From Candidatus Frackibacter sp. WG13 (GTDB lineage: Bacteria; Bacillota; Halanaerobiia; Halobacteroidales; Acetohalobiaceae): a stretch of DNA of 64,000 bases. The notes beneath the pieces are model-generated. The model was not told the DNA's origin. It saw only the letters and a program-made list of their open reading frames with translations, and did not search any database. Where the stretch lies: positions 1 to 64,000 of the forward strand of contig NZ_FOTT01000013.1 in NCBI RefSeq assembly GCF_900114655.1. The letters are read 5' to 3'. The position numbers and the translations under genes are program-made. Of this stretch, positions 1 to 17,171 are shown in pieces. Positions within the stretch are counted from its first letter, which is position 1. Each line of letters begins with the position of its first letter.

Positions 1-316
<316 letters not shown>

Positions 317-601
317 CTAGATAAATAAATTATAATTAACATTGTGCAGTTTTGAAGGTATAGTTGGCAGTTGACAGTTGACAGTTGAGAGTTGACAGTT
401 AAGGTCAAGATCAAGATCATTAAAACATTAAACCATAGTTAATAGTTAAAAACATTAAAGAGCTAAAAGATGTTAATGTTTTTACTCTTGACAAGTAAAA
501 TGATTAATGGTATATTATTAACTGTCATATGAATTAAAGAGTTTACGGTAAAAGTAACTGTAAACTATCAACTGTAAACTGAAAATTTTCAAAGAAAATT
601 T
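317..601 (+). other. 23S-5S intergenic spacer
   Basis: A spacer of about 285 bases, AT-rich and without any tRNA. It holds a heptamer repeat near its start (362-400) and a direct repeat of AACTGTAAACT around 555-580. No gene is visible. The spacer is presumably transcribed as part of the rRNA precursor and removed. Confidence 0.7.
362..400 (+). repeat. AGTTGAC heptamer tandem repeat
   Basis: Five head-to-tail copies of a 7-base unit, AGTTGAC with single-base variants (AGTTGGC, AGTTGAG), followed by a partial sixth. The core AGTTGACAGT recurs singly at 41037-41046 and 46338-46347, so it is a dispersed simple-repeat word of this genome. Confidence 0.75.
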
Positions 602-776
602 TCCGGTGGTAATTGCGGAGGGGTCACACCTGTTCCCGACGAACATGGATGTTCTAGTGTCCCGAGGGGCACAGGACGTGCCGGTTCCGAGGGTCCATTT
701 CGAACACAGCAGTTAAGTCCTCCAGCGCTGATGGTATTGCAAGGGTAGCCTTGTGAGAGAGTAAGTCACTGCCGGA
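602..776 (+). rRNA. 5S ribosomal RNA with internal expansion
   Basis: The 5S core is recognisable on both sides of an insert. The closing helix pairs 602-610 with 768-776 over nine pairs. The 5' half runs through GGGGTCACACCTGTTCCC, and the 3' half resumes at ATTTCGAACACAG. Between them, about 638-695, lie some 58 extra bases inside what should be the apical loop C of helix III. The gene is therefore about 175 bases instead of the usual 115-120. The insert can fold into local hairpins: 641-645 with 650-654, 657-662 with 667-672, and 674-677 with 693-696. Core elements after the insert (helix IV/V region) look normal, so the molecule is probably functional rather than broken. Expanded 5S rRNAs are known from some Halanaerobiales. 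Confidence 0.92.
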
Positions 777-809
777 TCTATTTTTAATAAATTTAATATT
801 TGTTTTTAA

Positions 810-850
810 GGACTTTCTATTGCAGTTAACTGTGATGGAAAGTCTTTTTT
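810..850 (+). terminator. Rho-independent terminator of the rRNA operon
   Basis: An inverted repeat GACTTTC / GAAAGTC with an 18-19-base loop is followed by TTTTTT, about 35 bases after the 5S gene. Confidence 0.7.
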
Positions 851-16580: not shown

Positions 16581-16666
16581 GGAGGGATGACCGAACGGCA
16601 AGGGGCTAGACTTGAAATCTAGTGAAGGCGAAAGCTGTCTGGGTTCGAATCCCAGTCCCTCCGCCA
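16581..16666 (+). tRNA. tRNA-Ser (anticodon TGA), copy 1
   Basis: Acceptor GGAGGGA pairs with TCCCTCC. Anticodon loop CTTGAAA. The variable arm is long, discriminator G and encoded CCA. Identical to the gene at 16983. Confidence 0.97.
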
Positions 16667-16675
16667 TCATAATGC

Positions 16676-16769
16676 GGAGAAGTACCCAAGTCAGGTTGAA
16701 GGGGACGGTTTGCTAAATCGTTAGGTCGCTCTAAGCGGCGCGAGGGTTCAAATCCCTCCTTCTCCGCCA
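16676..16769 (+). tRNA. tRNA-Ser (anticodon GCT), copy 1
   Basis: Acceptor GGAGAAG pairs with CTTCTCC. Anticodon loop TTGCTAA. The long variable arm (TAGGTCGCTCTAAGCGGCG) and encoded GCCA end are present. Identical to the gene at 17078. Confidence 0.97.
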
Positions 16770-16982: not shown

Positions 16983-17068
16983 GGAGGGATGACCGAACGG
17001 CAAGGGGCTAGACTTGAAATCTAGTGAAGGCGAAAGCTGTCTGGGTTCGAATCCCAGTCCCTCCGCCA
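16983..17068 (+). tRNA. tRNA-Ser (anticodon TGA), copy 2
   Basis: Base-for-base repeat of the tRNA at 16581-16666, with the same nine-base gap before the following tRNA-Ser(GCT). This points to a recent tandem duplication of the pair. Confidence 0.97.
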
Positions 17069-17077
17069 TCATAATGT

Positions 17078-17171
17078 GGAGAAGTACCCAAGTCAGGTTG
17101 AAGGGGACGGTTTGCTAAATCGTTAGGTCGCTCTAAGCGGCGCGAGGGTTCAAATCCCTCCTTCTCCGCCA
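17078..17171 (+). tRNA. tRNA-Ser (anticodon GCT), copy 2
   Basis: Same sequence as the tRNA at 16676-16769. Loop TTGCTAA, long variable arm, encoded CCA. Confidence 0.97.

Follow-up and report, generated by a model that had tools for sequence, protein, structure and literature searches.

Enlarged 5S rRNAs with an insertion at positions 34-37 are known in Halobacteroides halobius and two Halanaerobium strains (Stepanov & Fox 2021, PMC7812874). In that study, the H. halobius gene is 175 nt long (NC_019978.1 20186-20360), the insert is described as an unbranched helix to which no origin is assigned, the hosts of expanded 5S genes are considered to be linked by horizontal transfer, and positions 34-37 are rated among the least obstructed sites of 5S rRNA. 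According to the same study, the 5S rRNAs of H. morrhuae and T. thermosaccharolyticum, which carry inserts of other kinds, retain their expansions. Another set of RNAs that bears on the present locus is connected with the protein CsrA, for which the SELEX consensus RUACARGGAUGU and the CsrB repeat CAGGA(U/A/C)G have been described (PMC7652899). Gardner & Eldai found TwoAYGGAY and the reverse complement of Bacillaceae-1 to match the motif of CsrA, and voiced doubt about the strand (PMC4333381); the idea of a CsrA motif in these two RNAs belongs to them, and CsrA binding by the family is a published prediction (PMC4333381).

We analysed a stretch of 64,000 nucleotides from Candidatus Frackibacter sp. 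WG13 (contig NZ_FOTT01000013.1, positions 1 to 64,000; "the window" denotes this whole stretch), which begins within an rRNA operon with the following features:

1..319, plus strand: 3' end of the 23S rRNA gene, upstream of the expanded 5S gene in the same operon (Rfam RF02541)
488..516, plus strand: promoter-like TTGACA-N17-TATATT in the 23S-5S spacer (11 of 12 consensus matches)
602..776, plus strand: expanded 5S rRNA gene, 175 nt (alignment to the genome's two ordinary 5S genes; Rfam RF00001)
636..694 (638-696 equivalent), plus strand: 59-nt loop C insert (ordinary-5S alignment; match of model R2, described below, at 635-703, 46.6 bits, E=9.2e-12)
808..847, plus strand: terminator-like hairpin after the 5S gene

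We confirmed that an expanded 5S gene lies at 602-776. Aligned with the two ordinary 5S genes of the genome (C47:350-466 and C13:90807-90923, 116 nt each), it matches end to end with one substitution and one insertion of 59 bases, which can be slid by two bases, from 636-694 to 638-696, because CC flanks it. The first-pass annotation had placed the insert correctly in loop C; its estimate of about 58 bases at 638-695 is replaced by these values. By hand alignment the insertion site corresponds to E. coli positions 34-37, with a junction identical to that of H. halobius, and the gene combines the complete core and the insertion of 13-109 nt at positions 34-37 by which loop-C-type expanded 5S is recognised. 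In the predicted fold of the full 175 nt (all folds in this work are predictions for isolated RNA without proteins), the core folds like ordinary 5S and the insert departs from loop C. The Rfam 5S model matched only 660-777, with 38.8 bits against a cut-off of 38. Since this match starts inside the insert, automatic annotation would miss the expansion, in agreement with an earlier remark to that effect. It had also been pointed out that loop C faces uL5, so that the insert could protrude near the central protuberance; positions 34-37 being little obstructed (PMC7812874), uL5 need not be disturbed.

The assignment to the Halanaerobiales type, also made in the first-pass annotation, is borne out by the alignment with ordinary 5S genes and by the published H. 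halobius gene, since our own genome search recovered a 5S gene at exactly NC_019978.1 20186-20360 (genome G005). The window gene shares the loop-C site with the 5S genes of H. halobius DSM 5150 and Halanaerobium sp. DL-01, and with H. halobius also the total length of 175 nt; the inserts are 84-87% identical. Unlike them, it resides in a host from another family of the order, with two ordinary 5S genes alongside. The class of object is already known, and the window adds a host from a different family. The element occupies the identical 5S site in four further lineages: H. halobius (4 genes), G003, G013 and the Bacillota MAG L148 (isolate AS23ysBPME_338), of which G003 and the MAG are additional hosts, unnamed in the text of PMC7812874. 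A comparison of all 5S copies of the genome, which had been proposed earlier, gave one expanded gene among the three found; the corresponding values are 1/2 in G003, 4/5 in H. halobius and 1/1 in G013, all being counts in which draft assemblies may collapse copies.

Where the expansion segments of bacterial 5S come from had not been known. When the genome was searched with the 5S gene, a match to the insert only was found at C35:5100-5160, in an intergenic region, with 85% identity; compared with the five 5S copies, this free copy is 72-85% identical. A covariance model (R1) built from this free relative of the window insert and related copies gave 23 matches in 10 of the 59 genomes of the class, 16 outside 5S and seven within it (the window, four in H. 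halobius, G003 and G013). In those genomes which allowed comparison of multiple copies, the free copies lie in longer repeats with inverted flanks; these repeats span about 230-700 bp, and the inverted flanks were seen in several. For the core pattern, at least 119 matching stretches were counted in GTDB genomes, and the matches listed include many from Bacillaceae, as well as Acidiferrobacterales (tandem arrays), Spirochaetes, Desulfobulbaceae, Fretibacterium and others. A second model (R2) was built from 16 Bacillaceae copies only, with an RNAalifold structure and with the window insert held out; it recovered the held-out insert with 46.6 bits (E=9.2e-12 in 121 kb) and matched the remaining 5S inserts too. 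These comparisons showed that the insert is, at the level of sequence, a copy of a dispersed two-hairpin repeat with CsrA-type GGA loops. Our literature search found no description of this element as a dispersed repeat or within 5S, and it is the insert's identity as a repeat copy that is new; the first-pass annotation had recognised the type of loop-C expansion and not the GGA-hairpin repeat. For the Halanaerobiales type of expansion a source can now be named, namely a family of repeats that have CsrA-type loops and are scattered over several bacterial phyla. The element was also found on two IMG/VR viral contigs (L165:6837-6904 and L166:1254-1278), and the L166 copy matches, together with its flanks, a Desulfocapsa genome (L065).

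The free form of the repeat (fold B) consists of two GGA-loop hairpins, the second of which lies within an outer stem. Mapped on the window, its elements are as follows, together with the alternative rod (fold A) discussed below:

641..654, plus strand: hairpin 1 of fold B, GAAC-AUGGAU-GUUC, loop GGA at 647-649 (compensatory changes across copies)
668..682, plus strand: hairpin 2 of fold B, GGCAC-AGGAC-GUGCC, loop GGA at 674-676 (compensatory changes across copies)
659..695, plus strand: outer stem of fold B, 659-663 with 691-695, enclosing hairpin 2 (one mismatched pair in the window copy)
641..687, plus strand: fold A rod, 641-644/684-687, 646-655/673-683 and 657-662/667-672, both GGAs paired (predicted minimum-energy fold)

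Compensatory changes, seen in two independent alignments, occur in all three helices of fold B, and by this sequence criterion we showed that the two-hairpin fold is conserved outside 5S. Among the non-Watson-Crick cells of 64 copies, read on the GGA strand, G-U pairs outnumber A-C pairs by 23 to 9 (p=0.02), which favours the GGA strand, i.e. the reverse complement of the Rfam model of Bacillaceae-1. Against that model (RF01690) the insert scored 13.1 bits on the minus strand (E=6, cut-off 35), and it falls outside the Rfam family as defined. It does belong to a wider Bacillaceae-1-like element on the opposite strand, being matched by the repeat model and having two GGA hairpins with an outer stem. 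Like the reverse complement of Bacillaceae-1, it has two hairpins whose AGGAN loops sit on a C-G closing pair, with an outer stem that surrounds the second; unlike Bacillaceae-1, it sits inside a 5S gene and is predicted to fold as a rod. The two models meet in one Salibacterium copy (L051), a match of the core pattern which is also Rfam Bacillaceae-1 (49.5 bits) on the opposite strand. Bacillaceae-1 itself was found in 24 of 34 genomes of one family, with up to at least 107 matches per genome (107 being the number of candidates scored). It appears to be a dispersed repeat with tens to more than 100 copies per genome, rather than a single sRNA gene, and the strand chosen for RF01690 appears, judging from the wobble pairs, to be the less likely of the two. 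These data extend the proposal, made in 2015, that CsrA-binding RNAs exist outside Gammaproteobacteria: the family is multi-copy, occurs in several phyla and has wobble pairs that speak for one strand. TwoAYGGAY (RF01731) has two AYGGAY loops that have been matched to the CsrA motif (PMC4333381), and loop 1 of the present element reads AUGGAU; membership of the insert in this family was dropped, as a permissive search with Rfam assigned RF01731 neither to the insert nor to any of the diverse copies tested.

Both loops of the insert carry motifs of CsrA type. Hairpin 1 (ACAUGGAUGU at 643-652) fits the SELEX core ACARGGAUGU apart from a U for R, and hairpin 2 (CAGGACG at 672-678) fits the CsrB repeat. 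The insert thus shares with CsrB-type sRNAs the loop motif CAGGA(U/A/C)G and the placing of GGA in hairpin loops (PMC7652899); it differs from them in having two sites instead of many, in being a dispersed repeat and not one gene, and in the predicted masking of its loops within 5S, whose predicted fold leaves the GGAs inaccessible. In Acidiferrobacterales the GGA-hairpin element forms tandem arrays with a period of about 53 bases (L096:3128-3483, L059:3310-3517 and L102:852-1025), which resemble CsrB-like arrays made of units of this element. A further parallel is offered by the E. coli rrn sRNAs RrA, RrB and RrF, which are CsrA-interacting RNAs transcribed with rRNA (PMC8144298), the link of the insert to CsrA being a motif prediction; unlike the insert, these sRNAs are located outside 5S, in the region that follows the rRNA genes and between terminators (PMC8144298). 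The csrA gene is present in all 10 element-bearing genomes of the class compared with 31 of the 49 without the element (p=0.018, kinship ignored). Elsewhere, 41 of 45 genomes with the element have it, and the four in which it was not detected are MAGs. All 34 Bacillaceae genomes have csrA, hence they offer no contrast for co-occurrence.

The predicted structure of the element depends on where it resides. All five 5S-borne inserts have as their minimum-energy fold a single rod with both GGAs paired (P unpaired ≤0.01), whereas each of the 16 free copies that were folded has all its remaining loop GGAs open (P ≥0.81). The "up to three" stems of the first-pass annotation fit fold B (two hairpins and the enclosing stem); the minimum-energy fold is one long rod instead. 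In the four 5S copies tested, fold A lies 5.4-8.9 kcal/mol below a forced fold B. When the 5S is folded at full length, hairpin 2 has its GGA buried in each of the five copies (P unpaired ≤0.17, highest in H. halobius), and the ensemble buries at least one GGA in every copy, almost always both, with P unpaired mostly ≤0.01. Shuffled sequences that preserve fold B bury both GGAs in 0-0.7% of cases. For GGA burial in 5S versus free copies, Fisher's test gives p 5e-5, a value which ignores the kinship of the copies, because the five 5S copies may share one insertion. Loop access is thus predicted by these models to be lost only in the 5S copies. The five may descend from one insertion spread by transfer, in which case 5/5 does not stand for five independent events. 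Fold B is still nearly complete in every 5S copy, and in the G013 insert three strands are altered together in a way that, by eye, preserves both folds. Because free and 5S-borne copies are 72-85% identical and yet differ in predicted fold, the system offers a clear test of how rRNA accommodates foreign structured RNA.

Promoter-like sites similar to that at 488-516 also precede the 5S genes of relatives, expanded or ordinary, and are absent from the two ordinary 23S-5S spacers of the genome. The idea that such a site is a hallmark of expanded 5S was dropped, since ordinary 5S genes of the relatives have one too. The spacer of the window operon (320-601) is 282 nt long, against 57 nt before the ordinary 5S gene at C47, and contains short tandem repeats (AGTTGAC, AACTGTA) as well as the strong promoter-like site.

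We consider it probable that a repeat inserted into loop C of 5S and has persisted there as an expansion segment in the shape of a rod, in which the CsrA-type sites are masked; such an insertion would explain, in a way open to test, how a rare type of enlarged 5S RNA arose. A short dispersed repeat, whose free form is a dual hairpin related to the Bacillaceae-1 reverse complement and displaying two GGA loops of CsrA-binding type, would have entered loop C of a 5S gene, where the insert would prefer one closed rod that pairs both GGAs, exits loop C and leaves the core undisturbed. The rod would be transcribed and retained in mature 5S as a tolerated expansion segment, and the refolding may prevent both the trapping of CsrA on ribosomes and the misfolding of 5S. 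Transfer was presumably from the repeat into 5S and not the reverse, because the repeat is widespread and 5S copies are rare. Avoidance of CsrA may be the reason why the rod is kept; a simpler reason, that the insert must close on itself to spare the 5S core, would favour the same rod equally. The near-complete fold B of the 5S copies is more than masking alone would require, and is consistent with a different reading, in which the insert is an active CsrA-binding module that opens on the ribosome or during transcription and titrates CsrA with rRNA synthesis. The preservation of both GGA loop motifs in all five 5S copies despite stem variation, the survival of both folds in G013, the presence of csrA and the in vitro binding of CsrA by co-transcribed rrn sRNAs of E. 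coli (PMC8144298) point in the same direction. We nevertheless regard such a module as quite improbable, given that the predicted 5S ensemble buries one or, nearly always, both GGAs of each copy and that the insert is found in only one of three 5S genes here. It seems to us very improbable that the insert is a conformational switch, normally a closed rod but able, in certain circumstances, to change into a pair of hairpins that bind CsrA, with the result that some of the ribosomes or of the nascent 5S transcripts would titrate CsrA to an extent proportional to rRNA synthesis.

Retention of the rod in mature 5S, as the insertion of a masked repeat implies, might be questioned on the ground that the rod is long enough to be a substrate for a double-strand RNase. 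The insert could then be an intervening sequence excised from the precursor, e.g. through cleavage of the rod by RNase III, which would yield a 5S in two pieces that still works. Excision is admitted as possible for these families by Stepanov & Fox (PMC7812874); H. morrhuae and T. thermosaccharolyticum keep their (different) expansions according to the same study, and we find excision unlikely. It is distinctly unlikely that the expanded copy is silent or decaying and the ribosome is served by the two ordinary 5S genes alone. These genes do coexist with it, as a caveat in the first-pass annotation had in part anticipated, so the expanded copy could be dispensable, and the window copy has a mismatch in the outer stem of fold B. 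The gene is, however, not obviously silent as judged from its intact core, one base off the ordinary genes, and its promoter-like and terminator-like sites, and expanded genes make up four of five in H. halobius and the sole one found in G013. Convergence of short GC-rich hairpins could in principle make an insert that arose in place look like a member of the repeat family; the existence of a non-5S copy with 85% identity in this genome and the match of the held-out insert to a model from another class (E=9.2e-12), on which chance resemblance was rejected, make this extremely improbable.

The genome also contains a 230-bp dispersed repeat, in about nine copies with inverted ends (ATACATTTTTCG):

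C8:7575, C9:44811 and 61757, C11:128073, C17:45034, C21:80646, C23:19972, C29:45671 and C32:14452: copies of the 230-bp repeat (L191, L196-L203)

This repeat has the same two-hairpin architecture with CAGGANG loops as the 5S insert, and its stem sequences are unrelated. Between its two subtypes the stem pairs covary in a compensatory manner and the loop motif is constant. Elsewhere in the window, a tRNA-Ser(TGA)/tRNA-Ser(GCT) pair occurs twice, 402 bases apart (16581-16769 and 16983-17171).
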